DNA from: a virus
DNA: 30,012 nt
IMG/VR virus record: IMGVR_UViG_3300032309_001713
Location: 1 to 30,012 of that record
Strand: one strand, 5' to 3'
Below the pieces are notes generated by a model. That model was not told the DNA's origin. It saw only the letters and a list, made by a program, of their open reading frames with translations, and ran no database searches. Positions 9,718 through 30,012 of this stretch are shown here, one piece after another (position 1 is the stretch's first letter; each line of letters opens with the position of its first letter). The translations under genes and the position numbers were made by a program.

Positions 9718-10164
9718 TCACTTTGCCAGGCGGAGCTTGGTTTGCTGGCTCTTGCTGGGGATGGCGATGCGGCCATCTTCCCACTCGATCCTGCAACCAT
9801 TCACGAAGCCGATCCGGGGGGAGTCCATGCGCCGGATCTTCGCCCCCTCGAAGAAGGGCCAGCGGTCGCGGTTGGTAGCTGGGAGCTTGGAGCTAGGAGT
9901 TGGGGATTTGCCTTCGACTCTCGTCTCGGGCTTCGCCCCACCGATGCGGAAGCCGGTCTTGGTGACCTTGCGGCCTGTCTCGGTATCCCAAATGGTGAAC
10001 TGCTTGCACTCGACTTCGCCTGCACGGATCGATGGGGCTAGGTGTTCGCGGACTCGCTCAGGGGAACATTCCAACTGCTCGGCGATCTGCTCGGCAGTAT
10101 CCCAGCCGGGGGGCCATGCGTAGTGCCGGGCGTTCTGCTTGTGCAGGAGTTTTTTCCATTTCAT
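9718..10164 (-). CDS. Winged-helix phage protein (148 aa)
   Basis: Residues 21-60 contain a helix-turn-helix with wing (TAEQIAEQLECSPERVREHL, then RAGEVECKQFTIWD). A Ser/Pro/Lys linker follows near residues 85-96 and is encoded by a heptamer repeat that stays in frame. The C-terminal part (FVNGCRIEWEDGRIAIPSKS) looks like beta structure. It may be a transcriptional regulator or a substrate-recognition protein. Its start overlaps the stop of the phosphoesterase as ATGA, so the two are coupled. Confidence 0.62.
   Translation of the reverse strand: MKWKKLLHKQNARHYAWPPGWDTAEQIAEQLECSPERVREHLAPSIRAGEVECKQFTIWDTETGRKVTKTGFRIGGAKPETRVEGKSPTPSSKLPATNRDRWPFFEGAKIRRMDSPRIGFVNGCRIEWEDGRIAIPSKSQQTKLRLAK
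9871..9905. repeat. In-frame heptamer repeat AGCTNGG inside a coding sequence
   Basis: The plus strand reads GGTAGCTGGGAGCTTGGAGC followed by TAGGAGTTGGGG, a period-7 repeat. It lies within the winged-helix gene and encodes the linker SPTPSSKLPATN. It is distinct from the GGCTGAA family but has the same period. Confidence 0.65.
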
Positions 10165-11187: not shown

Positions 11188-11194
11188 TGTCAAA
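11188..11194 (-). promoter_or_regulatory. TTTGACA start-associated motif (phosphoesterase)
   Basis: On the minus strand the motif ends 13 bases before the ATG of the phosphoesterase gene. No -10 element and no Shine-Dalgarno is visible between them. Confidence 0.55.
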
Positions 11195-13869: not shown

Positions 13870-15552
13870 TTAGGCGAGGGCTACGGAAACGAGAGTGCCG
13901 TTATTGTTGGCCCACAGCTTCACGATACCAGTTGTGGTGTTGCGGTAGACTTGCCAGTTGCCCGTGGTGATGGTGGATGTTGTTGGGTCAGCGGCTCCAG
14001 ATGTCTGATTGATTGCCGTTAAGCCGACAATCGATGATCCCGATGATCCCGTAACACCTGTGACCGCGCCGACTGTCATGCCGCCGGTAGTGCTGAACCC
14101 TCGAAGACCGGTGATGTATTGGCTTGTGCCTCCGCCATTAGCTATTTGCAGGGCGGTCGTCGTTCCTGCGGTTACTATATTCAATGCCCTCGCCGTCCCC
14201 GTGCCGCCAGCCTCGGTGCCGATTTCGAGGACGTTGCTGTTCCAGCGCATGAATCCGCGCTCGTAGTTGGATGCGTCCGTGAACGTGTTGTAGAGGCGGA
14301 ATGCCTGTGCATTCGTTCCGTTGCGCAGGGCTAACGTGTTGGCTGCTCCGTCCCTAAAGAGCGTCGTGTCGCCGTTCCATCCAACAGCAAACGTAGCTGC
14401 AAAGTTGAATGTTTTTATGGTGTCTGCTCGGCAGGCAAAGATATTCCCGGCACCACTGTTAAACTGAACCGTTCCCGTGCTTCCAGACGCAAATGAAAAT
14501 GTTCCAGTGTTGCTTGCTGGAGTGAATGAGAACCCGCCAGTTCCACTTGTGCTTCCAAACTTGTTTATAGAAAACGCAGAGGTTCCCGAAGATCGGACAT
14601 CAAGCAGGCGACTCGATCCCGCGCTCGCCGTGTCGGTAACATTCAGCAAGATCCCCCTTGCAACTCCCGTGGTGTTCCAAGTCCCGCTGAGATCGAGAAG
14701 CGGGGTGGTGTTGTCTCCCGTGACGCTGTAGCTTGCAGTCAGGGCAGAGGTGTTCGCAGGGGCGGTGATGCTCTGACCGGAGGTGAAAGCGTTGTCAGAG
14801 CCAGTAATTGCAACGCTGGGTTTGGAAAGCACGTTGCCCCAAGTCAGGTAATCTTCATCAACGATCCTCTTTCTGGGGCCAGTCGATGCCTTTTGATACC
14901 AAAGGTTATTCGTTGCGGAGTCGTAGCCGACAACTCCGCGTAGGACTTCCCAGTTCTCCTTGACAGAAGGGCGAAGCAGTAGCGTTGCGTCTGATCGGAG
15001 TTGCGCCCCGGTGGCGGCGTCTCCCGCGAAGAAGACAGGAGCGACGAACCCTTCCGTGCTGGTTGCTGAATTAAACAGCACATCGTCAGTTGTATTAAGC
15101 GGCTGGTCGCCTCCTCCCGATGGAGTGGTCGGAACCCATGCGGTTCCATTCCATGAGGGAACTTGTCCAGATGTTGCCGATGATTGACTGAGATCAGAAA
15201 GCGGATGGGTATGAGCCGAGGGAGAGAAGGTCGTCGGCTTGCCGCTGATCGCCTCCCAGGTGGAGGCTCCGTCGGCTCCGGCTGGGCCTGTTGCGCCAAC
15301 TGGCCCTTGCGGCCCCTGCGGCCCCGTGGCTCCCGGAGAACCCGTGTCCCCCTTCAGCCCTTGGATACCCTGCGCTCCCGTCGCTCCGGTCGCACCTTGG
15401 GGGCCTGTTGCCCCCGTTGCGCCTGCTGGCCCTTGGGGGCCTGTTGCACCTGTCGCCCCCGTGGCACCTTGGAGACCCGGTGCGCCCGTGGCGAGTTCCA
15501 CCTCGAGGACGGCGGCGGCGGTGGTGACTTCGATCTCGATTTCAGCGGCCAT
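13870..15552 (-). CDS. Collagen-like tail fibre (560 aa)
   Basis: The product begins with a short acidic beta segment. Residues 23-97 are 25 uninterrupted Gly-X-Y triplets, and a fibre linker ([20 protein letters not shown]) with HxH follows. The rest is repetitive and rich in Ser, Thr, Asn and Gly, typical of a trimeric fibre, and ends [16 protein letters not shown]. No enzymatic or self-cleaving chaperone motif is visible. It should form a trimeric host-binding fibre at the tail tip. The gene follows the small baseplate-like protein, and its leader contains TTTCCAC heptamers. The receptor is unknown. Confidence 0.82.
15262..15486 (-). repeat. Collagen-like Gly-X-Y coding repeat
   Basis: Twenty-five consecutive Gly-X-Y triplets, mostly GAT, GPQ and GPA, encode residues 23-97 of the fibre. 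The array is a likely hotspot for length change by slippage or recombination. Confidence 0.9.
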
Positions 15553-15558
15553 GGAGAA

Positions 15559-15589
15559 AAAGTGAAAAGTGGAAAGTGGAAAGTGAAAG
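15559..15589. repeat. AGTGGAA heptamer array in the fibre leader
   Basis: The plus strand shows four imperfect AGTGRAA units. On the coding strand they read TTTCCAC and fill nearly the whole gap before the fibre ATG. The period is the same as in the GGCTGAA arrays but the sequence differs. Confidence 0.75.
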
Positions 15590-15591
15590 GA

Positions 15592-15966
15592 CTAAGCGGC
15601 CACGGTGATGCGGTCGTCCACTTCGACGAGTCCCTGATGGAGGACGATGCGGGTTCCATCGGCGCGGATCATGAGGAGGTCATGCTCGAGGTAGACATCG
15701 GGCTTCGTGCCGGGGAGGGTCGCGGTCACCGATGCAGGAAGAACAAGGGTCGCCTGACCATTCGCCGCATTAGTGATCGTCACCGTAAATTCAGCCAGGA
15801 CAGGAGCGCCGGACTTCTTGCGGATCTGCGACTTCAGCGTGGCACCGACGAGCGAGAGGGCGACCTTCGGCGTGACGGAGCGATTCCACAACTTCACCCC
15901 ATAGGAGTAATCAGCCCCCTGCATGATGCGGTTGTCACCAGTTAAATCAAACGTCGCGGCGGCCAT
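15592..15966 (-). CDS. Baseplate or fibre-attachment-like protein (124 aa)
   Basis: The 124-residue protein has a beta-rich pattern: IMQGADYSYGVKLW, LVGATLKSQIRKKSG, AEFTVTITNAANGQATLVLP and KPDVYLEHDLLMIRADG. This matches the small immunoglobulin-like proteins often encoded just before collagen-like phage fibres, sometimes called BppU-like. It probably links the fibre to the tail tip. Its leader contains a hairpin of heptamers and a 14-codon reading frame, described separately. Confidence 0.6.
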   Translation of the reverse strand: MAAATFDLTGDNRIMQGADYSYGVKLWNRSVTPKVALSLVGATLKSQIRKKSGAPVLAEFTVTITNAANGQATLVLPASVTATLPGTKPDVYLEHDLLMIRADGTRIVLHQGLVEVDDRITVAA

Positions 15967-15970
15967 GAGA

Positions 15971-16015
15971 TTAGGGGATTAGGCTGAAGGCTGAAGGCTG
16001 AAGGCGGGAACCCAT
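15971..16015 (-). CDS. 14-codon leader reading frame within the heptamer array
   Basis: ATG 16013-16015 begins MGSRLQPSAFSLIP and stops at TAA 15971-15973, four bases before the next ATG. It is preceded by TTTGACA with a 13-base spacer, exactly as real genes are. Most of it is encoded by the CTTCAGC heptamers. It may couple translation to the downstream gene. Confidence 0.4.
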   Translation of the reverse strand: MGSRLQPSAFSLIP

Positions 16016-16073
16016 ACGGAGGCCCCTGTGTCAAACCTCTGACCTAACAGTCTTCAGCCTTTAGCCTTCAGCC
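15982..16073 (-). promoter_or_regulatory. Long hairpin formed by inverted heptamer arrays
   Basis: The array at 15982-16004 (GGCTGAA on the plus strand) and its inverse at 16052-16073 match in 21 of 22 positions. They could fold into a hairpin with a loop of 47 bases. The loop holds TTTGACA and the start of the 14-codon frame. A terminator or translation-control structure is inferred. Confidence 0.55.
16029..16035 (-). promoter_or_regulatory. TTTGACA start-associated motif (14-codon frame)
   Basis: The motif ends 13 bases before ATG 16015 rather than before the large gene at 15966, which is why the short frame is taken seriously. Confidence 0.45.
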
Positions 16074-16080
16074 TGTTTTC

Positions 16081-16470
16081 TTACCACTTCCCTTCCGGGC
16101 ATTTGCTGGTCGCCATCCTGAGCTTCGCCTGTGTGCTACAGCCGCACTTCTGACAGCGGCCCGTGCCAGCAAAGCCAGAATGATCCCAGAACTCACATGC
16201 CTTGCAGATCGCCATGCGTCCCGCCAGCGTGGATTCGTCTGCCAACTTGAAGCCACCCTTGGCCCAGCTTCCCGTAGCTTGGGCAAGCGATTTTGCCTTT
16301 TCCAACAGCGACGGATCGGGTGGTGGAACAACGTTCACAGGAGCATTCTCCCGAGTCACGCCATGAGGACATTCCTCGGGTGCTCCTTGTTCCGTTCTCC
16401 AAGGTTTAGAGAATCGGCAGACTCGGCACATCTTCCGATCCCTGCACGATGCCGAATCTAGGAAGTCCAT
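16081..16470 (-). CDS. Zinc-binding cysteine-rich tail-region protein (129 aa)
   Basis: Ten cysteines form two groups: C9, C15, C18 and C34, then C89, C92, C106, C109, C111 and C124. The second group reads CKACEFW, CQKCGC and ends KCPEGKW, a zinc-ribbon-like pattern. Between them lies a proline-rich linker and a helix (LLEKAKSLAQATGSW). It is encoded among distal tail genes, so a role in fibre or baseplate assembly is likely but unproven. The ATG is four bases after the previous stop. Confidence 0.62.
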   Translation of the reverse strand: MDFLDSASCRDRKMCRVCRFSKPWRTEQGAPEECPHGVTRENAPVNVVPPPDPSLLEKAKSLAQATGSWAKGGFKLADESTLAGRMAICKACEFWDHSGFAGTGRCQKCGCSTQAKLRMATSKCPEGKW

Positions 16471-16474
16471 GCTC

Positions 16475-17116
16475 TTAGCTCCATGTCAGGGTCGCCGTTC
16501 CTCCTCGCGTGTTCGGGGAGCTTGGGGTGGAGAAACAGTTCGATCCGTAAATGACCCCTTGATAAGTTAAGCTGTTTTCCGTTTCAGCGATCAGGCACTC
16601 GGCTCGGAACCACTCGATTTGCGTAGAGAAGATCGATGGGCGCACGAACACTTCATTGGGAACAAAAAGCACGTCAGGGTTGGCGGCAACTGCTCCCCCA
16701 TGCGGAGTGGTCTCTATGTTGTAATAACCGGGCTGAGAACCGAACTCGGGATTTACCGGATCAGTCGAACTGTAATAAGTCAGAGTCATGGGGTTGTAGA
16801 GGTTCCCAATACCTAGCATCTGATCAAAAAATCCCGTCCCAGCGATTGTTTCCTCACACGCCGCGCATCCATAGGAATCGCACTCCCCGGAGGAACAAGG
16901 CACCACAACAGCTTCACCAGAACCAAAACTAAAACAACCACAGGGGCAGAACTCGATGTCTGCCAACTGCAAGGTGAATTCACTGACAATGATCGCTCCC
17001 TCTTGAGGCTCCGATCCGGGGGCGAGGAATCGCTTTGAGGTCGTGATCGCTGGGCAACCGCACTCCTCGCAAACTGCTGGTTGGCAGCAGTCGCACTTGT
17101 TCTTGATGAAGGCCAT
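16475..17116 (-). CDS. Cysteine-rich distal tail protein candidate (213 aa)
   Basis: From ATG 17114-17116 the product has at least thirteen cysteines in its first 90 residues: CDCCQPAVCEECGCP at 8-22, CPCGC at 57-61 and CSSGECDSYGCAACEE at 74-89. The C-terminal half is beta-rich and aromatic (MTLTYYSS, IEWFRAECLIAE). The pattern suggests several metal sites or disulphides. Position between tail-tip and fibre genes suggests a structural protein of the tail tip. A longer start would overlap the previous gene. Confidence 0.6.
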   Translation of the reverse strand: MAFIKNKCDCCQPAVCEECGCPAITTSKRFLAPGSEPQEGAIIVSEFTLQLADIEFCPCGCFSFGSGEAVVVPCSSGECDSYGCAACEETIAGTGFFDQMLGIGNLYNPMTLTYYSSTDPVNPEFGSQPGYYNIETTPHGGAVAANPDVLFVPNEVFVRPSIFSTQIEWFRAECLIAETENSLTYQGVIYGSNCFSTPSSPNTRGGTATLTWS

Positions 17117-17126
17117 GGCGTTGGGA

Positions 17127-17834
17127 CTACGGCAGCGCGTAGCCGCCGCCGTGATCAATCGGATACTTCGCCGACTTCCCCCCCTCACAGATGTCGATGA
17201 TCACTTGGTTCTGGCGCAGTCCCTGGACGATCACGGGATTCCCATCGTCGCCCGCATAGCTGTAACCAATCAGCTTTCGGAACGTCTGGAACTTCGCATC
17301 CTCTTCAGCCCCGTCATCCTCGAGGTAGCCGTTGTTCCCACTCCACGGGCCAGCCGTCACGTCGAAGTCGTCATCGTTCCCCCATGAGTTCACGGTGGCC
17401 GAGGTGATGGTCTGAGGGTCGCCGCTACTAAAGACCACAGTCAGCCAGATGGCATCCTCGGCAATCATGTCGAGCCAGCCAGCATCGTCAGGATCGGGGT
17501 TGTTCTCACTCAGAAGGCCCGTGATGGTCTGTTTGTCGTCGGGCTTGAATGACTTAAAGAGTGCTGACTCATAGATGACCCCCCACTGCATCTGTCCGGT
17601 GCTGGTGCCGGGCTTCGACTGCGTAAGGATCTGGAATGGGAAGGAGGCCGAAGAAACCGATCCACCTCCCCCCTTGATCGAGAGTGAGAACCCACCGCGT
17701 GATGCGGTGTAGCTGTAGCCGACGCCCGGCTGGATCTCCCGCGCTCGAAGCTCGGCATCCAGCCACGCGGCGAAGCGATCCCATGCGGCAGGAGTCAGCT
17801 CTCCTCCACTCTGAAGCCGTGGGCAACGTGACAT
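17127..17834 (-). CDS. Distal tail protein of unknown family (235 aa)
   Basis: From ATG 17832-17834, two bases after the previous stop, this encodes 235 residues. It begins MSRCPRLQSGGELTPAAW, followed by an amphipathic helix (FAAWLDAELRAREI). The remainder is beta-rich and strongly acidic (NNPDPDDAGWLD, DDGAEEDAKF). It lies between the tape measure and fibre genes and probably belongs to the tail tip. No catalytic motif was seen. Confidence 0.6.
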   Translation of the reverse strand: MSRCPRLQSGGELTPAAWDRFAAWLDAELRAREIQPGVGYSYTASRGGFSLSIKGGGGSVSSASFPFQILTQSKPGTSTGQMQWGVIYESALFKSFKPDDKQTITGLLSENNPDPDDAGWLDMIAEDAIWLTVVFSSGDPQTITSATVNSWGNDDDFDVTAGPWSGNNGYLEDDGAEEDAKFQTFRKLIGYSYAGDDGNPVIVQGLRQNQVIIDICEGGKSAKYPIDHGGGYALP

Positions 17835-17836
17835 GG

Positions 17837-18508
17837 TCAGTTCCCGTAGAGCATCTGCTCCCAACCTCCCTGTCCGCTGGCCCGATACTCCCGAGTGACA
17901 CGCCACTTTGCGTTGATCAAGGCAATGGCATTCATCCCGGTCAATATCCAGTTCGCGCCGGTAGGCAGCGCGGGTGCATTGGTGAGTCCCGCGGCGATCT
18001 TGCCGATGTCCGCCATGCTCGGCAATGATGACTCGTCAGCGGTGATCGAGAGGGTGATCGATGGCTTCAGGACGGACTCAATGCCCTTCTTGAAGTAGAG
18101 GTAGGCGTAGGCATTCAACCCGCCGCTGCCAGTGAGTTGATCAGCCCATTTCTTAGTCCCAGCTTCACAGTCCTGAATGGTCTTGAGGTCGTCAGCAGAC
18201 AAGGCCCATTCCTGCCCATCGGCAAATTTCCAGAAGCTCTTCAGCGGTTCGCTCGAGGTGGTCGTGTGGATCTCGTAGTTCCAAGTCTGTGAGGAACCAC
18301 CGCCCCCACCGCCGCCGCCGCCATTTGATAGATCGCCGTCCGAATCATAGGTCAGACGATAGACGCCGTCCGAGAAACTCTTGGTGACGTTGACCGCGCC
18401 CGACGGAGCTGAAGGATAGCCACTCAGGCTCTCAAGCGTGGTCGTGGTGATGAACCTACCAAGGCTGGCGACCCACTTGGAGGAGGTGGAAACTGTAGTG
18501 TCGGCCAT
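17837..18508 (-). CDS. Distal tail protein with polyglycine linker (223 aa)
   Basis: The 223-residue protein begins MADTTVSTSSKWVASLGRF. A run of nine glycines at about residues 63-71 joins an N-terminal segment to a larger domain (WNYEIHTTTSSEPLKSFW). Conserved motifs are not obvious. It directly follows the tape measure gene, where a distal tail protein is normally encoded. The leader before its ATG is A/C-rich. Confidence 0.6.
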   Translation of the reverse strand: MADTTVSTSSKWVASLGRFITTTTLESLSGYPSAPSGAVNVTKSFSDGVYRLTYDSDGDLSNGGGGGGGGGSSQTWNYEIHTTTSSEPLKSFWKFADGQEWALSADDLKTIQDCEAGTKKWADQLTGSGGLNAYAYLYFKKGIESVLKPSITLSITADESSLPSMADIGKIAAGLTNAPALPTGANWILTGMNAIALINAKWRVTREYRASGQGGWEQMLYGN

Positions 18509-18523
18509 GATCGTGAGGTGTGG

Positions 18524-20032
18524 TTAGTAGGAGGGCGCGAACTCGGCGATGACGGGCGACATCATGCCCTTGGCCAAGTTCTGGTTGATGGATTGCAGGA
18601 GGCTGGTCTGTCGCTTGTTCTCCTCGAGGATGGGATTGCTCCCCCCGCCGACCGAGATGCCGCCGCCGCCGATCTTGGCCAGCGAGTCGGCGAAGATGGC
18701 CTGCTTGGCGACCTGTCCGATGTCGGAAGGGTTGAATGTGCTCTGACCCATCACTCGGCTTGCGTTATCGGAGGTCGCCTTGGCGTTGACAGCCTTTGTC
18801 GCATCAGACGCGGTCACCACTGGGGCCAGGCTCTCCTTGAGCTGATCCGCAAGAACGCCGATGCGTTCCTTGAGGCTTGATCCGAGAGCGGCCTTGTTCC
18901 CGGCATCCTCCGCGCTGAGATTGGTCAGGCCATTGCCCCGGCTCTGGACTTCGCCTAGGATCTGGTCAAAGGATGTCGCCTTGAACCCTTTCAGGCCTAG
19001 CTTGTCGCCAAGGACTGGGATCTTCCCCACCATCTCCATCGCCGACTCGACGGCCTTCTGGAGTCCGGCCTCCATGTAGTCGAGCGGGGTCTTGAAAGTC
19101 CTGATAAGGAAATCCTTGATCTGAGATCCGATGTAGTAGAAGGAATCCAGGATGACTGAGAGGCCATCCTTGCTAAAGACGAGACCGATCGTGTCACCGA
19201 TGAACTGGACGATCTTGCTCCACTCGCCGGAGAAATCCGTGGAGAAGTTCCCGATGACATTCCCAAGCTTCTGTCCAATCCCGGAAAGGTCGATCCCGTC
19301 GATCCCATTTGCCAGTGAGTCCAACAGTCCGGTCATGCCGCTGGCCATCCCAACGAAGAGTCCTTGCAGCTTGGGGCCGACACGACCCAGCGAGTCGCTC
19401 GCCTTTTCGAAGATCCCGGCATTCTCACCCAGCAGGCGCGCTGTCTCGGAGATGTTCCCGGCAGACTTGAAATTCGGGTCCATGAAGACCTGAAGTAACT
19501 CGCCACTCGATTTCCCAAAGAGGGCCATGGTCGCTGCCGCCCTCTCGGTGCTATTCGGAAGCTGTGAGATGGCATTCCCGATCTGGGCGAACGCCTGGCC
19601 GCTATCCATCGATGCTAGGCTCTGAGGGTCGAGGCCCATCCCCTTCAGCACATTAGCCTCCTTGCCCCCTCCGACCGAAGAGGCGAGGGCCTTCTGCATC
19701 TTGTTCACATAAGGGCCGAGCTTCTCAGCATCCACTCCGGCATCCTTGAACGCCAGTCGCAGCCCGTAAAGTGACTCGACGGCGACGCCTGTCCTATTGG
19801 AGAGATCGACCATCTCGCCCCCAAGATCAAGGGCACCCTTCATCCCGGCCATGATGGCGGTGATGGAACCCACTCCGGCGGCTACTGCGGCAATCGGCCC
19901 TAGTAACTGGCCGAAGCCTGCCGAGGCCATCCGGGATGTCGCCGAGGCAACGGCTGAAGTCGCCCTGTTCAGGGACTGAGTAAGCGGCGCAATATCCAGC
20001 CCGAAACTAGCTTGGAGTGATTCGTTGGCCAT
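18524..20032 (-). CDS. Tape measure protein (502 aa)
   Basis: The 502-residue protein is Ala-, Gly- and Ser-rich and helical. Its N-terminus (IAPLTQSLNRATSAVASA) and hydrophobic stretch (LLGPIAAVAAGVGSITAIMA, near residues 43-62) are typical of tape measure proteins, which set tail length and may line the channel for DNA entry. The region TGVAVESLYGLRLAFKDAG is a common tape-measure core. For a siphovirus it is short, so the tail is probably well under 100 nm. It follows the frameshifted chaperone gene with one gene between. A nine-codon frame lies in its leader. Confidence 0.85.
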   Translation of the reverse strand: MANESLQASFGLDIAPLTQSLNRATSAVASATSRMASAGFGQLLGPIAAVAAGVGSITAIMAGMKGALDLGGEMVDLSNRTGVAVESLYGLRLAFKDAGVDAEKLGPYVNKMQKALASSVGGGKEANVLKGMGLDPQSLASMDSGQAFAQIGNAISQLPNSTERAAATMALFGKSSGELLQVFMDPNFKSAGNISETARLLGENAGIFEKASDSLGRVGPKLQGLFVGMASGMTGLLDSLANGIDGIDLSGIGQKLGNVIGNFSTDFSGEWSKIVQFIGDTIGLVFSKDGLSVILDSFYYIGSQIKDFLIRTFKTPLDYMEAGLQKAVESAMEMVGKIPVLGDKLGLKGFKATSFDQILGEVQSRGNGLTNLSAEDAGNKAALGSSLKERIGVLADQLKESLAPVVTASDATKAVNAKATSDNASRVMGQSTFNPSDIGQVAKQAIFADSLAKIGGGGISVGGGSNPILEENKRQTSLLQSINQNLAKGMMSPVIAEFAPSY

Positions 20033-20034
20033 GG

Positions 20035-20064
20035 CTAAAGAGGCTGAAGGAAAAGACAGATCAT
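20035..20064 (-). CDS. Nine-codon leader reading frame before the tape measure gene
   Basis: ATG 20062-20064 encodes MICLFLQPL and stops at TAG 20035-20037, two bases before the tape measure ATG. TTTGACA lies 14 bases upstream of this ATG. As in the leader at 15971-16015, CTTCAGCC lies within the short frame. Translational coupling is inferred. Confidence 0.35.
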   Translation of the reverse strand: MICLFLQPL

Positions 20065-20078
20065 CACTGCTGAGGGTA

Positions 20079-20085
20079 TGTCAAA
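20079..20085 (-). promoter_or_regulatory. TTTGACA start-associated motif (tape measure leader)
   Basis: The motif lies 46 bases before the tape measure ATG but only 14 before the ATG of the nine-codon frame. Confidence 0.42.
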
Positions 20086-20102
20086 ACGTGGCCTCCAAAG
20101 GT

Positions 20103-20795
20103 TCAGATCCCGCGAACCCTGAAGCCGGGATACTTCTTGGCAATGGTCCCAACCTTCTTGAAGACTCCAGCCCTGACATTCCTGTAAAAATACCCGGTGC
20201 GCCCGTTGATCGCCTTCAACAGCGCGGCCATGCCTCCGCCCCTGATCGCGGCTCTGGTGAAGTTCTCAACCATGAACCCGACCTTGCTCATGCTCACCCT
20301 TCTGGTGTGCCTCACTTCATCCGTGAGTTCCTTGCCGTTCACCCTGGCGGCGGCCACATAGGCCGGGGGCGTCTTCGGTAGCGTGATCCTCATCCCCTTG
20401 GCGAGCAGATACCATGACTTCTTGGCCGTGCCGATTCGCTTGCGGAGTTCCTTGATCCGCTGATCCTTGCTCATGTTGATCCATGACCAGATCTGGTCGG
20501 GATAACGGTGAGCCACTCCTCCTCGTCCCTTGACCATCAGGTAGGCCGTGCCCTTCGATAAGGATGACTGGGGACGCTTCGCAGGAGATGATTCGCTAAT
20601 ATAGACCCACTTCACGAAGCTCCTATCAATGGACGCCTTGGTAGCCTTGGCGGTGTGGGTGATGGTCTGAGAGAGCACACTCCCGATCTCGGACTTCACG
20701 ACATCCTCAAAATTCACGCCGCTCATCCGAGCCATCTCTTTGATGGCCCGGTTGAAGTTGCTGGTGTCGATGGTCAGGGCTTTCTTGCTCACCAC
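20103..20795 (-). CDS. Tail protein of unknown family (230 aa)
   Basis: The 230-residue protein is strongly basic, especially in its second half (RIKELRKRIGTAKKSW, KKVGTIAKKYPGFRVRG). It starts at GTG 20793-20795 or the adjacent GTG 20790-20792, both overlapping the stop of the frameshifted chaperone, so the two are coupled. It lies between the chaperone and tape measure genes. A structural or assembly role is likely, but no family is recognised. Confidence 0.6.
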   Translation of the reverse strand: MVSKKALTIDTSNFNRAIKEMARMSGVNFEDVVKSEIGSVLSQTITHTAKATKASIDRSFVKWVYISESSPAKRPQSSLSKGTAYLMVKGRGGVAHRYPDQIWSWINMSKDQRIKELRKRIGTAKKSWYLLAKGMRITLPKTPPAYVAAARVNGKELTDEVRHTRRVSMSKVGFMVENFTRAAIRGGGMAALLKAINGRTGYFYRNVRAGVFKKVGTIAKKYPGFRVRGI

Positions 20796-21396
20796 TCCTC
20801 CCCCATGTCAACTGCCGCAAAGGCCAGCAACTCGCCGATCTGGACATCGGCAGGAGCCGACTCCCTCACCGTCCAGACATCGTGCGAGCGCAGCGCGGCG
20901 TGGTAGTAGGCATTCACCCGGTAGACGGGCATCTCCATCAAGGCCTGCTCGCTGAAGCCCCCTTCCTTGGCCAAGGTGAAGACCAAGGCCGCGAGGGAAG
21001 GAGGCTCGATCAGTTTGGGGGTGCGGTCTCCGAGGAAGAAGAAGAGGGCTTCGCGATCACCTCGACAGCCGTCTCCTTCTCCAGCCCCGTGACGACTACG
21101 AACCAATCGGCTGCGGCCTTCAGGTCGTCGTCACTCACCCCCTCGAGGAAGGCATCCTTGTCCACAAGGTAGGCAGACTTATTCAGCGTATTCAGGGCGA
21201 CCCGATCAATCGGGGCGGCGATCAGGTAGATGAAGGCAAAAAGGATCTCCTCATTCCGATCTGCCTCGTCGATGTCGAGCCAGCGCAGGATGCGAGAGAG
21301 CTTGAGCTTGACCCGGTTCGAGTAGGGGCGAACCTTCACCCCGGCGATGACCGGCTCCTCGGCGTAGAGGCGTTCGTTCAATGTTTCCTCGCTCAT
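20789..21396 (-). CDS. Tail assembly chaperone, frameshifted long form (GT-type, about 202 aa)
   Basis: A -1 frameshift at the slippery heptamer on 21013-21019 would join the 128-residue short form to a 74-residue extension that ends at 20789. The extension reads LIEPPSLAALVFTLAKEGG, then ALMEMPVYRVNAYYHAALRS, and has no good start of its own. The shift signal, position before the tape measure gene and overlap match the lambda G/GT system, where the long form recruits tail tube subunits to the tape measure. Frameshift efficiency cannot be judged here. Confidence 0.75.
21010..21019 (-). promoter_or_regulatory. -1 programmed frameshift site CCCAAAC
   Basis: On the minus strand the zero-frame codons are C CCA AAC TGA. 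The heptamer C-CCA-AAC (21013-21019) permits both tRNAs to re-pair one base back on CCC and AAA, and a TGA stop (21010-21012) follows at once. Confidence 0.78.
21010..21396 (-). CDS. Tail assembly chaperone, short form (G-type, 128 aa)
   Basis: From ATG 21394-21396 the short form has 128 residues. It begins MSEETLNERLYAEEPVIAG, contains helices VKLKLSRILRWLDIDEAD and DDLKAAADWFVVVTG, and ends in a serine-rich stretch (SSSSSETAPPN) around the shift site. The start lies four bases after the previous stop; a longer frame overlaps that gene. Its size and place fit the G protein of siphovirus tail assembly. Confidence 0.75.
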   Translation of the reverse strand: MSEETLNERLYAEEPVIAGVKVRPYSNRVKLKLSRILRWLDIDEADRNEEILFAFIYLIAAPIDRVALNTLNKSAYLVDKDAFLEGVSDDDLKAAADWFVVVTGLEKETAVEVIAKPSSSSSETAPPN

Positions 21397-21400
21397 AGCA

Positions 21401-21850
21401 TTACAGCTTGGCAAGGAGCTTCTGCCGCTCGGCCTCGGTGGCATTCGCAGGGATGTAGGCGGCGCGGCCTCCACGGGTGACCTTGATCGTCGGGGAGGCA
21501 TTCTTGATCTGGTCGCGGAGCGAGTTGACGTTCTCCATGAGGCACTTCATGAAGGCGATGGGGTGGTCGGGATTCCCCGCGATCCATTCCCTGTCCTGGT
21601 ATCGCTTCAGGAACTCGGCCTGACTGACCTTCTCCCCCTCAAAGGCGCGGAACTCGATCTCGGCATCCTTGAGCAACCAGACAACCGTGCGACGGGGCTT
21701 GCCGTCATTCCCCTGCTCGATGGTGTCGAGGTAGCCATTCTCACCGAGGCAGCCGCCAGAGGTGAGTGCCGCCGCGACGGCGTGGGTATTGGCAGAGGAG
21801 AGTGGGTGCTGGTGATCGACCAGCACGGAGAGCTTTTCGTTGGTATTCAT
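21401..21850 (-). CDS. Tail-region protein of unknown function (149 aa)
   Basis: The 149-residue protein contains VLVDHQHPLSSANTHAVAAA, RRTVVWLLKDAEIEFRAFEG and RDQIKNASPTIKVTRGGRAA. The central region mixes strands and helices. No family was recognised. It lies between the tail-tube-like proteins and the tail chaperone, so a minor tail or assembly function is plausible. The leader of 35 bases contains CTAACAGCC, a fragment of the heptamer-array edge. Confidence 0.58.
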   Translation of the reverse strand: MNTNEKLSVLVDHQHPLSSANTHAVAAALTSGGCLGENGYLDTIEQGNDGKPRRTVVWLLKDAEIEFRAFEGEKVSQAEFLKRYQDREWIAGNPDHPIAFMKCLMENVNSLRDQIKNASPTIKVTRGGRAAYIPANATEAERQKLLAKL

Positions 21851-21885
21851 CGGTTCATTCCAGACTGTTAGTGGCGTGATGGCTG

Positions 21886-22215
21886 TTAGGCCGTGGCTCC
21901 TGGGAACTGCTTCCCGCTATACTTCCACGAGGCGAAGTCGTCGTTCTTCTCGGTCTTGCTGAAGGAATCGATGACGATGATCCCTCCCGAGATGGTGGAG
22001 GGGATGTTCGAGGAGGCCACTCCTAGCGTGATCGCAGGGTAATCGCCCGATCCCTCCACGGAGAACTCGGCTGTCGGGTCGTAGGTGCAGGCGGCAGAGA
22101 AAGCCCCGGTGCGATCCTTGAGCACCTTGGTCTCGGTCTTGCGCGAGGTGGTGACCTTGGAGATGGTGCCGGAGGTGAAGGAAGAGATGCCAATGGCGGC
22201 GGTGACGGCGGGCAT
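21886..22215 (-). CDS. Tail-tube-like protein, copy 2 (109 aa)
   Basis: The product is beta-rich and Ser/Thr-rich: AIGISSFTSGTISKV, KVLKDRTGAFSAACTY and FSVEGSGDYPAITLGVA. It aligns with the protein at 22249-22566 through IGISS, a K-x-(I/L)-(R/K)-D segment, a (K/E)G-(K/S)G segment before P-A-(L/I)-T-L, and a ND/NED..F ending. A duplication is therefore evident. Its position before the chaperone fits tail tube subunits, although 109 residues is small for one. The leader is C/A-rich without Shine-Dalgarno. Confidence 0.65.
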   Translation of the reverse strand: MPAVTAAIGISSFTSGTISKVTTSRKTETKVLKDRTGAFSAACTYDPTAEFSVEGSGDYPAITLGVASSNIPSTISGGIIVIDSFSKTEKNDDFASWKYSGKQFPGATA

Positions 22216-22248
22216 GGTGGGTGGTCGGTTAGGGGTGGTGGGTTGCTC

Positions 22249-22566
22249 TTAGCTCCACTTCATGGCCTCGAGGGAGAAGTCGGGGAAATCCTCGTTGGAC
22301 TCATCGACGGAGACGGAGGTCACGACCGCCGTGCCGGAGGTGACATTGGCATTGACAGCCACAAGCGTGAGCGCAGGAGCACCCTTGCCCTTGACCGAGA
22401 TCTTGGTCTCGGTGAACGGAAGCACTCCGACCTGCTTGGTAACTCCGCTTGAGTCCCTGATCGTCTTGATCTCCTTGGACTCGTCCTGAGTCACCTCAGT
22501 GATGACGCACCCAGCTCCGGGGCTGACAAGGGCTTGAAATGTGGAAGAGATTCCGATGGCAGGCAT
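22249..22566 (-). CDS. Tail-tube-like protein, copy 1 (105 aa)
   Basis: The 105-residue protein has alternating beta pattern (CVITEVTQDESKEIKTIRD, FTETKISVKGKGAPALTLVA, VTSVSVDESNEDFPDF). It is a diverged paralogue of its downstream neighbour. It starts one base after the stop of the 28-residue gene. A tail tube or tail-completion role is inferred from order: after the tail terminator, before the chaperone. Confidence 0.65.
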   Translation of the reverse strand: MPAIGISSTFQALVSPGAGCVITEVTQDESKEIKTIRDSSGVTKQVGVLPFTETKISVKGKGAPALTLVAVNANVTSGTAVVTSVSVDESNEDFPDFSLEAMKWS

Positions 22567-22567
22567 A

Positions 22568-22654
22568 TTACTTGGAGGGCTGGGGTTCGGGAGCAGGGGC
22601 GGGTGATTTCACGACATCCTTTTCGAGGATGAGGGGGTTGGGCTTCTCGCTCAT
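22568..22654 (-). CDS. Proline-rich microprotein (28 aa)
   Basis: A short frame from ATG 22652-22654 encodes 28 residues: MSEKPNPLILEKDVVKS then PAPAPEPQPSK. TTTGACA lies exactly 13 bases before the ATG, and the next gene starts one base after its stop. These features support translation, although the product is very short. The role is unknown. Confidence 0.58.
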   Translation of the reverse strand: MSEKPNPLILEKDVVKSPAPAPEPQPSK

Positions 22655-22667
22655 GGAAGTGAAGGCG

Positions 22668-22674
22668 TGTCAAA
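22668..22674 (-). promoter_or_regulatory. TTTGACA start-associated motif (28-residue gene)
   Basis: The motif ends 13 bases before ATG 22654, in the gap after the tail terminator gene. Confidence 0.55.
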
Positions 22675-22682
22675 TCTCCCAA

Positions 22683-23087
22683 TCACTCCGAGACGCCGAG
22701 CACGGCCTCGACCTCAGCGACCCATGAGTTCCCCTCCTGGCTTGTCTTGGTTCCAGTTGACCAGACTCCGCAGAATGCCGGGGTGCCGCTGACGCTTGGC
22801 CATTTGGCTGTGAGAGAGGTGGAGGTCAGGGCGGCGGCCAAGCCATCGAGCACGGCATCGAGATCGGATAGCGCGGAGGCTCCAAGCAAGGCCGGGGAGA
22901 CAACACGGATGGTCACGGGGGCCTTCCAGAGATTTCCAGCCACATGGTCAACCGTGGCCGCAGAGATAACCAGCGTCGTGGTCTCCGGGGGGATCTCTTC
23001 GTAGCTTGTCCCGGTATGGATCACTGCCGTCGGGAAGGAGACGGCGAGGGCCGTCTTGAAAGCGGATTCAATCGCTAAAGGATTCAT
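22683..23087 (-). CDS. Tail terminator-like protein (134 aa)
   Basis: The 134-residue protein contains IESAFKTALAVSFPTAVIH, a strand-rich core (TTTLVISAATVDH, VTIRVVSPA) and an acidic C-terminus (SWVAEVEAVLGVSE). Length, fold pattern and location between connector and tail-tube genes match lambda gpU-like or DUF3168-type tail terminators, which cap the tube and join it to the head. Sequence identity was not tested. Confidence 0.6.
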   Translation of the reverse strand: MNPLAIESAFKTALAVSFPTAVIHTGTSYEEIPPETTTLVISAATVDHVAGNLWKAPVTIRVVSPALLGASALSDLDAVLDGLAAALTSTSLTAKWPSVSGTPAFCGVWSTGTKTSQEGNSWVAEVEAVLGVSE

Positions 23088-23091
23088 AGGA

Positions 23092-23418
23092 TTAGTCGCG
23101 GAGTGCCTGGACGGTGATCGAGGGATTCACCGGGTCGCCGATGTTGCTGGCGGAGTGCTCGATCCTGAATGTGACGTTCTCATCCTCGAGCTTCAGGACG
23201 GCACCCTTGACGGGCTTCGCAGCGCGGCCAATAGGCCAGACTGCGGTGAGGGATGTGGCGATGTTAAACCCGCCAGTTTCCAAGCTGTCTGAGATCGAGG
23301 GGAAGCTGACCGAGGCAAAGAATGGCTTGCCCCCGGCAATGGAGATCCGTGTGCCTGTCGCGTCGGAGACGTAGCCGATGCGCTTGCGGGATGCCCGGAG
23401 GATGGTGCTGCGCTTCAC
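23092..23418 (-). CDS. Head-tail connector or closure candidate (108 aa)
   Basis: The product starts at GTG 23416-23418 and has 108 residues. The N-terminus is basic (KRSTILRASRKRIGYV), followed by strands (RISIAGGKPFFASVSFP, VKGAVLKLEDENVTFRIEH). It is encoded right after the capsid gene, where closure or adaptor proteins are expected. TTTGACA is placed 13 bases before the GTG, which supports this start over later ones. Confidence 0.58.
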   Translation of the reverse strand: MKRSTILRASRKRIGYVSDATGTRISIAGGKPFFASVSFPSISDSLETGGFNIATSLTAVWPIGRAAKPVKGAVLKLEDENVTFRIEHSASNIGDPVNPSITVQALRD

Positions 23419-23431
23419 ACCAGATCGGAGG

Positions 23432-23438
23432 TGTCAAA
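23432..23438 (-). promoter_or_regulatory. TTTGACA start-associated motif (connector gene)
   Basis: The motif ends 13 bases before GTG 23418. An array of GGCTGAA heptamers lies directly upstream. Confidence 0.55.
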
Positions 23439-23439
23439 A

Positions 23440-23464
23440 CAGCCTTCAGCCTTCAGCCTTCAGT
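23440..23464. repeat. CAGCCTT heptamer array
   Basis: More than three tandem units occur on the plus strand, so the coding strand reads GGCTGAA here, the reverse of most other arrays. It lies between the capsid terminator and the TTTGACA motif. Confidence 0.8.
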
Positions 23465-23479
23465 CTATCCACCTTGCTC

Positions 23480-23523
23480 CACAAAAAGCAGAAGGCCGTC
23501 CCCCACGCACGAGGGACGGCCTT
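23480..23523 (-). terminator. Rho-independent terminator after the major capsid gene
   Basis: A perfect 11-base stem (AAGGCCGTCCC with GGGACGGCCTT; 23513-23523 and 23492-23502) has a 10-base loop. On the minus strand it is followed by CTGCTTTTTG. It lies 25 bases after the capsid stop and may limit transcription of the tail genes relative to the capsid gene. Confidence 0.82.
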
Positions 23524-23547
23524 GCTTGGTTTGCCTAGTGGGAGGAC

Positions 23548-24405
23548 TTAGGCGGCGGCGACGATGAGGCCCATCGTTCCGGAAGTGACAGCCTTCGCGG
23601 CTCCGAACATCACCTCGGCGGAGGCGACGATCGCGCGGGTGCTGCGATCTGCCATCACGTTGTAGTAGATGCTCATGCCGAGCTGCTCAAGAACCACCAC
23701 GTCGCTGACCAGATACTCGTCACGGACGTGATCGAGCGCAGGAGCGGCGGAGGCAATCGCCAGAGCCTCGGGGCTGCAAGCGAAACCAGCGAGGCGGGTC
23801 TGACCGCTGAACTGGTTGGCGTAGAACACGCCGTTGTCGAACCCATACGCGCCCTTGTCGAGCGTGATCGAGGTCGTCGCGGTCGGGATGATGCCGCTGT
23901 AGAGGGTCGGCGAGAGCACGAGGCCCTTGCTGCTGCTCTTGCTAACGGAAGCCCAGAGCTTGGCGAGGTCTCCAGAGGAGAAGTTCGCGGAAGCGGTGGC
24001 GGGAGCGACAACTGCCGAGCCGTAGTTGGCAACGGTGATTGGGGTGGTCACAACGGCCCAGATCTTGTCGGCGAGGGCGTTGAGGTTGATCTTCACCAGC
24101 TTCTCGAGCTTGATGCCGGACTGGATGTCCGAGTAATCAAGGCCGAAGGGCTGATAGAGGTGGTCGAGGGCGACGGTGGCCTTGTCCAGAGTCGTGCCGC
24201 CAGTGCTGTTGAAGCTGGTGGGGTTGGTCTGGGTGCTGGAGGTTGCCGTGGCGACGGGCACCTGGATGGTGTCCTTGGGCTTCTTGACCTCTGCGGAGAA
24301 GTCGGAGGAGAACAGATTCAGAGCTGCGAGGCGGTTGCCAAGCACGGTCTGCGCCTGCTCAGAGATCGTGCTCGCGATGAGCGCGGAATCAATGGTGTTG
24401 GGCAT
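23548..24405 (-). CDS. Major capsid protein (HK97-fold candidate)
   Basis: The 285-residue protein begins MPNTIDSALIASTISEQAQT. It contains strand-rich segments (DTIQVPVATATSS, TVALDHLYQPFGLDYSDIQ), a helix (LEKLVKINLNALADKIWAV) and a C-terminal Ala/Val-rich part (STRAIVASAEVMFGAAKAVT). The order after the protease-scaffold gene and the terminator just downstream support major capsid identity. It is compact for an HK97-fold protein and no delta domain is obvious, because the scaffold is fused to the protease. Its A/C-rich leader resembles that of the ParB-like gene. Confidence 0.83.
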   Translation of the reverse strand: MPNTIDSALIASTISEQAQTVLGNRLAALNLFSSDFSAEVKKPKDTIQVPVATATSSTQTNPTSFNSTGGTTLDKATVALDHLYQPFGLDYSDIQSGIKLEKLVKINLNALADKIWAVVTTPITVANYGSAVVAPATASANFSSGDLAKLWASVSKSSSKGLVLSPTLYSGIIPTATTSITLDKGAYGFDNGVFYANQFSGQTRLAGFACSPEALAIASAAPALDHVRDEYLVSDVVVLEQLGMSIYYNVMADRSTRAIVASAEVMFGAAKAVTSGTMGLIVAAA

Positions 24406-24472
24406 GGTGGTGGGGTTGGGTTGGGTTGGGTTTGCTTGGTTTCCTGTGGCGTTATTGCCTCATGAAATTAGT
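24406..24472 (-). promoter_or_regulatory. Major capsid gene leader with AACCC repeats and shared element
   Basis: On the minus strand the leader runs ACTAATTTCA, AATAACGCCA, GAAACCAAGCAAAC, then tandem AACCC units and CCACCACC to the ATG. Positions 24430-24472 nearly duplicate the ParB-like gene leader. No Shine-Dalgarno lies near the start despite the expected high expression. Confidence 0.6.
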
Positions 24473-25595
24473 TGCGCCGAGCCGCGAAGATTGCGGTCTT
24501 GTGCGCCTTGAAAAGTTCGGCTGCGAGCTTCTTGTCTCCTGCCTCGACGGCGGCGGCATAAGCCTCGACGGGATTGAACGGAGTGGCCTCGGCGGCGATC
24601 TCAAGCTCGACATCGGAGGGGAGGAGGCCCACTGCCCGGAGGGCGGTGCGCTTGATCTCCTCAAGCTTGGCGATGGTGAGATCACGCTTCTCGACTTCAG
24701 CCTTCAGCGCGGAAAGGTTCCGATGGGCGGTCTCCAGATCGGCGCGGAGGGTGATGACTTCGGCCTTGGTGTTCTCGAAATTGAGAACGACATCGGAGAG
24801 CTTGCTCGAGAGCTTTTCCTCGGGGAGGTCTTCCACGGGAGCAGGGGCGACGACGACTTCCTCGATCTTCTCCTCTGCGACAGGCTCGGCCTTCACTTCC
24901 TCATCCTTCTCGACGGGAGCCTCGGCAGGGGCGGCTTCCTCGGGGATGTTCTGAGTCCCCTCGGGGCCTTTCACTTCGAGTTCGGCGGTGACTTCCTCGG
25001 CCTTGATCTCCTCGACGGGAGCCTCGGCGGGAACTTCTACGGGGTTGATGTCTTGTGTCATAGCTTGAAAAAGGCCGGATGGGTTCGCCGCTGGCTGATC
25101 CACGATGTCTGCGGAGTAGATCTCCATGCACCGGGCTGCACGGACGATCTCGACGCCACCCTCGGGGAGTTCGCCGCTATTCGGCTCAACCTCTTCGCTG
25201 TCATCGGAGGGAACCTCGACATCCTCACTTTCTCCGAAGAAGGAGATGGAAAGACCAAAAGAGCTAGGCATGGTCTCTGCCATCTCGAGGATCTTCTCGA
25301 AATCGTCGTGGCTCTTAATGAGGTGCAGATCGGCGCGGAGCTGGAGGCCGTCGATCTGGAAGTCACGGAGGACTCCGACCATGGCGTCGATTCCCGTGTA
25401 GTGATCCATCTTGACGCGGAGGCCGTCGACGTAGGTCTCGGCACAAGCCTTGACTTGCTCAAGCGTCACGCCGTCCACGATCATGCCGTGACCCTTGGCC
25501 TCTCCCTCAGTGATGACCGAGACGCCGCGAAGGACGCCAGCTTCACGGTCTACCCGTGAGCCAGTAGCGGCGGCGAAGAAAGTCAGCTTCTGCAT
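24468..25595 (-). CDS. Prohead protease fused to a scaffold-like domain (375 aa)
   Basis: Residues 1-170 match prohead serine proteases: VKMDHYTG holds the probable catalytic H65, SSFGLSISFF holds the nucleophile S116, and SADIVDQPAANPSGLF follows near residues 160-175. Residues 180-275 are an unusual Glu/Pro/Ala-rich linker. Residues 280-335 form a coiled coil (FENTKAEVITLRADLETAHR, KAEVEKRDLTIAKLEEIKR), typical of scaffolds. The fusion would direct capsid assembly and then be cleaved out. TTTGACA lies 17 bases before the ATG and overlaps the portal stop. Confidence 0.82.
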   Translation of the reverse strand: MQKLTFFAAATGSRVDREAGVLRGVSVITEGEAKGHGMIVDGVTLEQVKACAETYVDGLRVKMDHYTGIDAMVGVLRDFQIDGLQLRADLHLIKSHDDFEKILEMAETMPSSFGLSISFFGESEDVEVPSDDSEEVEPNSGELPEGGVEIVRAARCMEIYSADIVDQPAANPSGLFQAMTQDINPVEVPAEAPVEEIKAEEVTAELEVKGPEGTQNIPEEAAPAEAPVEKDEEVKAEPVAEEKIEEVVVAPAPVEDLPEEKLSSKLSDVVLNFENTKAEVITLRADLETAHRNLSALKAEVEKRDLTIAKLEEIKRTALRAVGLLPSDVELEIAAEATPFNPVEAYAAAVEAGDKKLAAELFKAHKTAIFAARRN

Positions 25596-27115: not shown

Positions 27116-27122
27116 TGTCAAA
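27116..27122 (-). promoter_or_regulatory. TTTGACA start-associated motif (portal gene)
   Basis: The motif ends 13 bases before ATG 27102 and lies between the tRNA-like element and the portal gene. Confidence 0.55.
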
Positions 27123-27232: not shown

Positions 27233-27523
27233 TCAAACTGACCAACGCACTGCGCTGAAGTCGGGGCTCGTGCCAAGCTGGCGGCCACCTGTTCCCTGTG
27301 CGATAATCTCCTCGATGGCGGCAAGAAGGAGATTCGCCGGGACGCTGATCTGTCCGCTCACACCACCTCCCTGACCGGAGGAGGAGATCACGACCGACTC
27401 ATCGATCTTGCCGAATGCCTCGTCTGCCAAGGCATCAAGCTCCTCTGCGCTGAACTTGCGCCTCAGATACCGCTTAACACCTGAAAGGTCTTGAAGCTGG
27501 TCAATTTTGTAGGAGTCGGCCAT
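27233..27523 (-). CDS. Head-tail joining candidate, gpW-like by position (96 aa)
   Basis: The 96-residue protein lies between large terminase and portal genes, where lambda encodes gpW. It has a helix (SGVKRYLRRKFSAEELDALA), a turn- and strand-rich centre (SVVISSSGQGGGVSGQISVP), and a second helix (ANLLLAAIEEIIAQG). Helix-strands-helix recalls gpW, but it is longer and the sequence match is not evident. TTTGACA lies 13 bases before the ATG. Confidence 0.5.
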   Translation of the reverse strand: MADSYKIDQLQDLSGVKRYLRRKFSAEELDALADEAFGKIDESVVISSSGQGGGVSGQISVPANLLLAAIEEIIAQGTGGRQLGTSPDFSAVRWSV

Positions 27524-27536
27524 GTAGGCCGCTCCG

Positions 27537-27543
27537 TGTCAAA
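27537..27543 (-). promoter_or_regulatory. TTTGACA start-associated motif (gpW-like gene)
   Basis: The motif ends 13 bases before ATG 27523, three bases after the stop of the large terminase gene. Confidence 0.55.
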
Positions 27544-29909: not shown

Positions 29910-30012
29910 TTGCGGTTCTCTTTCGTGTCAAACGCACACTATGCGAATTGGCGTACGGGCTATGCGCTTCACTCCCAAAGCAGACGCACTCAAAAAGACC
30001 GAGGTCGGCAAC
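29910..30012. other. Segment upstream of terminase: possible packaging site; contig end
   Basis: No gene was found here. The segment contains CTATGCG twice, around GAATTGGCGTACGGG. It ends in GTCGGCAAC, which is identical to the first nine bases of the window. A cos or pac site and late promoter are expected here by comparison with lambda-like phages, but no signal proves either. Confidence 0.4.
29926..29932 (-). promoter_or_regulatory. TTTGACA start-associated motif (terminase small subunit)
   Basis: The motif ends 16 bases before ATG 29909, at the head of the late operon. It could be a real -35 element, but no -10 is visible before the start codon. Confidence 0.5.

Follow-up and report, generated by a model that had tools for sequence, protein, structure and literature searches.

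Short sequences placed repeatedly in front of start codons have been described in phages and in bacteria. The SAS/ESAS motifs of cluster K mycobacteriophages, which have the consensus GGGATAGGAGCCC and a Shine-Dalgarno core, lie 3-7 bp from the start codons of non-structural genes; they are short, asymmetric and phage-specific, occur in essentially one orientation before many start codons, are absent from the host, and have no known function (PMC3203893). Bacterial chromosomes of the Beggiatoaceae carry TAACTGA heptamer repeats before start codons, built from one fixed unit (MacGregor 2015, PMC4679880), and in Xanthomonas and Nostoc the G-quadruplex-forming heptamer GGGAATC makes up dispersed intergenic tandem repeats (PMC4692102).

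Here we analyse a window of 30,012 nucleotides, a 30 kb IMG/VR phage contig, in which a motif of the first kind and heptamer repeats of the second meet in the leader of a tail gene. The motif, TTTGACA, resembles SAS/ESAS in being a short, asymmetric phage sequence that precedes many starts in essentially one orientation, with some copies containing the upstream stop codon. It differs in that it lacks a Shine-Dalgarno core, stands 13-17 nt from the start, precedes mainly virion genes, and occurs in very diverse phages of another phylum. Neither its sequence nor its spacing is that of the cluster K family (GGGATAGGAGCCC, 3-7 bp from the start), and by analogy TTTGACA appears to work like the SAS of those mycobacteriophages while being unrelated to it in sequence. 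A literature search found no published description of a TTTGACA start signal.

The heptamer leaders of these phages share with the TAACTGA repeats a short intergenic array, mostly in one orientation, before starts that have no Shine-Dalgarno site, but they are built from several units (CTTCAGC, CTTTCCA, AACTCCC and AGCTTTT) that differ between relatives at one and the same leader. Like GGGAATC they are dispersed intergenic tandem repeats of seven bases; GGGAATC, in contrast, forms G-quadruplexes and is unrelated to start signals or short frames. Finally, in translational coupling and leader peptides a short frame stops no more than 4 nt from the start codon that follows. A 14-codon frame in the tail-gene leader likewise ends within 4 nt of the next start; unlike known coupling frames, it consists largely of a tandem repeat and is started by a phage-specific signal.

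The tail-gene leader and the TTTGACA signal

The genes of the window lie on the minus strand and include those for terminase, portal, capsid-like, tape-measure and tail-fibre proteins, an exonuclease, an endolysin and a primase. Along the coding strand, gene 16081-16470 ends and a GGCTGAA array follows, then TTTGACA, 13 nt and the ATG of the short frame; the 14-codon frame, with a CTTCAGC array inside it, then runs to its stop, which is separated by TCTC from the ATG of the tail gene. This bears out an earlier note on this DNA, which had placed TTTGACA between two opposed arrays, an ATG 13 nt after it, and a 14-codon frame ending four bases before the next gene; the stop is at 15973-15971 and the ATG of the gene at 15966, and all these elements lie on the minus (coding) strand. 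The note had also called the downstream gene baseplate-like; a tail gene it is, but that label is loose, as the protein matches PHROG 1084 (unknown function) and PHROG 3304 (L-shaped tail fibre assembly).

TTTGACA occurs ten times in the window, always on the minus strand, where 2.6 copies would be expected on both strands together, and most copies stand 13-17 nt before a start codon (Table 1). Across the window and 29 related phage loci (L003-L031; 420 kb) we counted 165 copies on the coding strand and none on the opposite strand, and 133 of the 165 fall within 12-20 nt of the start of an open reading frame of at least 40 aa. The spacing peaks at 13 nt, which is also its mode among these 133, and extends to 17 nt, with almost nothing below 13. 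The same behaviour is shown by just two one-base variants, TTTGACT and, to a lesser degree, GTTGACA. At gene 24468-25595 the motif is present in each of the 22 orthologues compared (33-92% identity) while the surrounding sequence differs. The start codons downstream of TTTGACA appear genuine, since most orthologues preserve codons 3-4 (K-L) through synonymous changes. TTTGACA therefore has what defines a start-associated sequence, namely one orientation and a fixed short distance to many start codons; rather than being a feature of one loop, it is a recurrent gene-start signal across this phage group.

Table 1. Positions of the tail-gene leader elements, of TTTGACA copies and of the tape-measure short frame in the window.
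Feature	Position	Strand	Remarks
Upstream array, GGCTGAA on coding strand (hairpin 5' arm)	16052..16074	-	between end of gene 16081-16470 and TTTGACA
TTTGACA gene-start signal of tail-gene leader	16029..16035	-	16035-16029 in minus-strand reading
14-codon frame MGSRLQPSAFSLIP + stop; probable leader/coupling frame	15971..16015	-	ATG 16015, TAA 15973-15971
Leader array (CTTCAGC)3.6 within 14-codon frame (hairpin 3' arm)	15981..16005	-	unit differs in L031
Downstream tail gene, 124 aa	15592..15966	-	PHROG 1084/3304 matches; ATG 15966
TTTGACA, 16 nt before ATG of terminase small subunit gene	29926..29932	-	
TTTGACA, 13 nt before ATG of gene 27233-27523	27537..27543	-	
TTTGACA, 13 nt before portal gene ATG	27116..27122	-	
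TTTGACA, 17 nt upstream of the gene 24468-25595 ATG; the TGA within it serves as portal stop codon	25613..25619	-	22/22 orthologues
TTTGACA, 13 nt before GTG of gene 23092-23418	23432..23438	-	preceded by GGCTGAA array 23440-23463 and terminator-like hairpin 23523-23492
TTTGACA, 13 nt before conserved 28-34-codon small gene (MSEKPNPLILEK...)	22668..22674	-	
TTTGACA of tape-measure gene, displaced by CTTCAGC-containing leader	20079..20085	-	
9-codon frame in tape-measure leader	20035..20064	-	starts +14 from TTTGACA, ends 2 nt before gene ATG (20032)
TTTGACA, 13 nt before ATG of exonuclease/metallophosphoesterase gene	11188..11194	-	

The signal could be read from DNA or by the ribosome. It is possible, at somewhat less than an even chance, that TTTGACA is a promoter element of leaderless or near-leaderless mRNAs read by a phage-dedicated factor, in which case the 14-codon frame would be the start of the mRNA and the upstream array would lie outside the transcript. 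The sharp cut-off at 13 nt, below which start codons hardly occur, agrees with this reading, as does the lack of enrichment before host genes (see below). Also in its favour, the genes of the window and its relatives hold no antisense copies, against 16.6-17.4 expected (16.6 under synonymous shuffling). In a ranking of 12,960 7-mers by depletion, antisense TTTGACA comes within the top five, where several of the other words include restriction-like palindromes. This avoidance suggests a DNA-level signal and is unexplained by a purely ribosomal role, but in other phages it was not significant (6 seen versus 10.9 expected). A DNA-level role is also favoured at gene 23092, where a strong terminator-like hairpin (23492-23523, minus strand) follows the capsid-like gene; in the window a heptamer array separates the hairpin from TTTGACA, and in two relatives, L028 and L006, TTTGACA follows it directly.

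Against a promoter, the conserved bases number only seven, no -10 hexamer was found at a usable distance from TTTGACA, and the sequence logo has no second conserved block. Nor does TTGACA have the -10 hexamer 16-18 nt downstream that a sigma-70 promoter would require, and no promoter pair of that type was found in 15800-24000. The search for a recognition protein turned up neither a sigma factor nor an RNA polymerase in the window, and gave only a sub-threshold HTH_40 match for the 148-aa product of 9718-10164. A ribosomal role, for its part, would account for the constant spacing between signal and start codon.

The coding sequence of the window and its relatives is also strongly depleted in palindromic words, including CCTTAAG, TGGGCCC and words containing GTAC, as under restriction avoidance.

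Heptamer arrays, displaced leaders and short frames

GGCTGAA is five-fold over-represented in the window (29 copies versus 5.8 expected), and a good share of the copies form short arrays where genes meet. Period-7 repeats are the commonest tandem class in the phage group (30 arrays, versus at most nine for any other period of 5-12) and are built from ten different units; the same habit is seen in some Verrucomicrobiota genomes and is absent in others. Among 28 distinct CTTCAGC arrays, drawn from the relatives of the window and a second phage group, 20 end 4-38 nt, mostly within 20 nt, before an ATG that opens a frame of at least 40 aa on the same strand, and so stand in forward orientation just before start codons as the TAACTGA repeats do. 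Arrays that read GGCTGAA on the coding strand are often upstream of TTTGACA. The orientation of arrays relative to the gene is not random and is largely consistent.

Two further observations concern the arrays. The leader of the collagen-like tail-fibre gene 13870-15552 (15558-15588) is made of the CTTTCCA heptamer and lies beside genes with CTTCAGC leaders. The second phage group (L194-L197), from similar samples, does not have the TTTGACA signal; each 10-15 kb of its DNA contains several CTTCAGC arrays, most of which immediately precede an ATG.

Arrays can displace the signal from its gene. At the tape-measure gene, TTTGACA stands about 13-16 nt from the ATG in the array-free relatives L013, L014, L031, L024, L011 and L006, versus 46-67 nt in the window and L004, where CTTCAGC repeats lie between, and 48 nt in L008, where another heptamer does; this difference indicates that arrays have repeatedly entered the spacer. 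The tape-measure leaders of the window and L004 differ by 21 nt, or three heptamers, so that the reading frame is kept. Three of five independent displaced leaders have a short frame that starts at +13, +14 or +16 after TTTGACA and leaves 4, 2 or -4 nt to the ATG of the gene (shuffle P ~5e-7, in a post hoc test made after the cases had been seen). The remaining two have none, which means that TTTGACA can stand 33-48 nt from a gene without a short frame. Counted across 754 distinct sites, coupled short frames at offset 13 exceed background about ten-fold; some of the loci in this count were fetched by scans requiring ATGGC at +13, and it includes a few chance matches.

The short frame of the tail gene is known from close relatives only, with 14, 14, 14 and 10 codons in four of them; the 10-codon version, in L031, ends 17 nt before the gene. 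A conserved small gene of 28-34 codons (22568-22654, minus strand), shorter than gene callers usually accept, is a real gene with the same geometry: 13-14 nt separate TTTGACA from its start, and its end is 1-3 nt ahead of gene 22249-22566 or the relatives of that gene. The matching geometry of three displaced leaders makes it probable that ribosomes translate the 14-codon frame and that the tail gene is translationally coupled to it.

The best joint explanation, to which we give roughly an even chance on the sequence comparisons, combines the start signal, displacement by arrays, a coupling frame and an incidental hairpin. TTTGACA, and also TTTGACT, would be a start signal in phages that infect Verrucomicrobiota and would set the start codon 13-17 nt downstream. 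With pyrimidine-rich CTTCAGC heptamers between the signal and the tail gene, the signal would now start the 14-codon frame; a ribosome would read through the array, which has no stop in any frame, end 4 nt before the gene ATG, and restart there by translational coupling. The second, inverted array upstream would be an independent member of the family, and any hairpin it forms would be incidental or minor in effect.

One may postulate instead that nothing functional is present beyond the gene start, and that the leader consists of heptamer slippage arrays in intergenic DNA together with a chance short frame. Period-7 arrays of many units do abound in these phages, as they do in some Verrucomicrobiota genomes, and because CTTCAGC repeats are free of stops in every frame, any ATG before one opens a short frame. 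We nevertheless consider this scenario unlikely, as TTTGACA is conserved and keeps its distance to the start codon, short frames ending at the gene start recur, and the arrays keep a largely consistent orientation to the gene.

The inverted arrays and the hairpin

The opposed GGCTGAA arrays reported by the earlier note are present, with arms at 15981-16003 and 16052-16074 that are 23 nt long, 22/23 (96%) complementary and 48 nt apart; the short frame, whose ATG stands at the usual distance from TTTGACA, overlaps the 3' arm. The coding strand of the leader folds at -58 kcal/mol, versus -44.2 for shuffles (z -3.25), and the plus (non-coding) strand folds more strongly still (-68.5, z -6.0). The better-than-shuffle fold arises because two arrays of the same family stand in opposite orientation, and with two neighbouring arrays drawn from one heptamer family an inverted pair is unsurprising. 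The upstream array is probably an independent member of the family to which the leader array belongs. A pattern scan for further copies of the leader core found none, and the leader had no Rfam match.

The tail gene is kept at 90-94% identity in four close relatives (L028-L031). L029 and L030 retain both arms, better matched than in the window; L031 has a shorter 5' array and a different leader heptamer unit, and pairs only with the help of G-U. In L028 unrelated sequence replaces the 5' arm, yet the signal, the frame and the gene are retained. Covariation of the arms, which the earlier note had offered as a check, was not seen: no compensatory change occurs across the four relatives, and L029 and L030, the two with both arms, are near-identical here, leaving no covariation visible. 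Complementary arms are thus neither conserved nor compensated among the relatives, and at other genes a single array stands on one side of TTTGACA only. Together, the loss of the 5' arm in L028, the lack of compensatory change and the one-sided arrays elsewhere indicate that the hairpin is not a conserved module.

These results bear on the attenuator-like switch that the earlier note had proposed, in which pairing of the arms would shut off the tail gene until a ribosome translating the short frame melted the hairpin; in spite of the complementary arms, the stable fold and the pairing retained in L029, L030 and L031, we find this very improbable in view of L028, the uncompensated arms, the mostly one-sided arrays, and the fact that no T run or alternative hairpin, as attenuators have, was identified. 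The short frame, by contrast, is better supported: it starts exactly where this phage group puts start codons after TTTGACA, and two other displaced leaders share its geometry. The preferred reading remains the start signal with a coupling frame, and the hairpin, which appears to arise simply because a common heptamer repeat is present twice, would be incidental or have a minor effect.

TTTGACA in other phages and its implications

A scan of viral contigs, which yields many chance matches, included among the matches listed phages with distantly related terminase and portal proteins that carry TTTGACA start sites, 3-6 in each. Relatives of the portal of one such phage occur in 11 of 388 Verrucomicrobiota genomes; several of these genomes, G070 most clearly, have TTTGACA-N13-ATG matches clustered on the prophage contig. 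For the phage of the window, the nearest terminase matches are to an uncultured Verrucomicrobia MAG (23%), Akkermansia phage Moulinsart (33%) and one Verrucomicrobiota genome (34%). Of the named Verrucomicrobiota phages, Moulinsart has no TTTGACA at gene starts; in P8625, which has few copies, TTGACA mostly stands some 30 nt from the ATG, and there is no avoidance of antisense copies.

TTTGACA showed no enrichment before genes across 241 Verrucomicrobiota genomes, and none in nine genomes chosen mainly for their heptamer arrays; a general gene-start signal of the Verrucomicrobiota was rejected on these grounds. The motif is thus found in phages and is not enriched before host genes, a comparison made on Verrucomicrobiota genomes in general.

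A small hairpin or a TGAC...GTCA palindrome is frequent in the spacer between TTTGACA and the ATG in L206, L207 and other phages with the motif, modestly above shuffles in this broader group. A conserved hairpin in the 13-nt spacer was rejected as a rule, the tendency being modest only.

Tentatively, and with rather less confidence than we place in the account of the tail-gene leader, these observations may mean that phages of Verrucomicrobiota share TTTGACA as a single-block signal, that their virion genes are expressed from near-leaderless mRNAs through a factor or mechanism other than the ordinary one of the host, and that arrays which break the spacing are tolerated by means of coupling frames. 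If very different phages of a little-studied phylum do share one precisely spaced signal, this would open a direct way to study how their virion genes are expressed. The signal would aid in calling gene starts and small genes, in assigning phages to Verrucomicrobiota, and in finding the factor that reads it. The leaders described here also show that simple repeats can be tolerated inside the leaders of genes.
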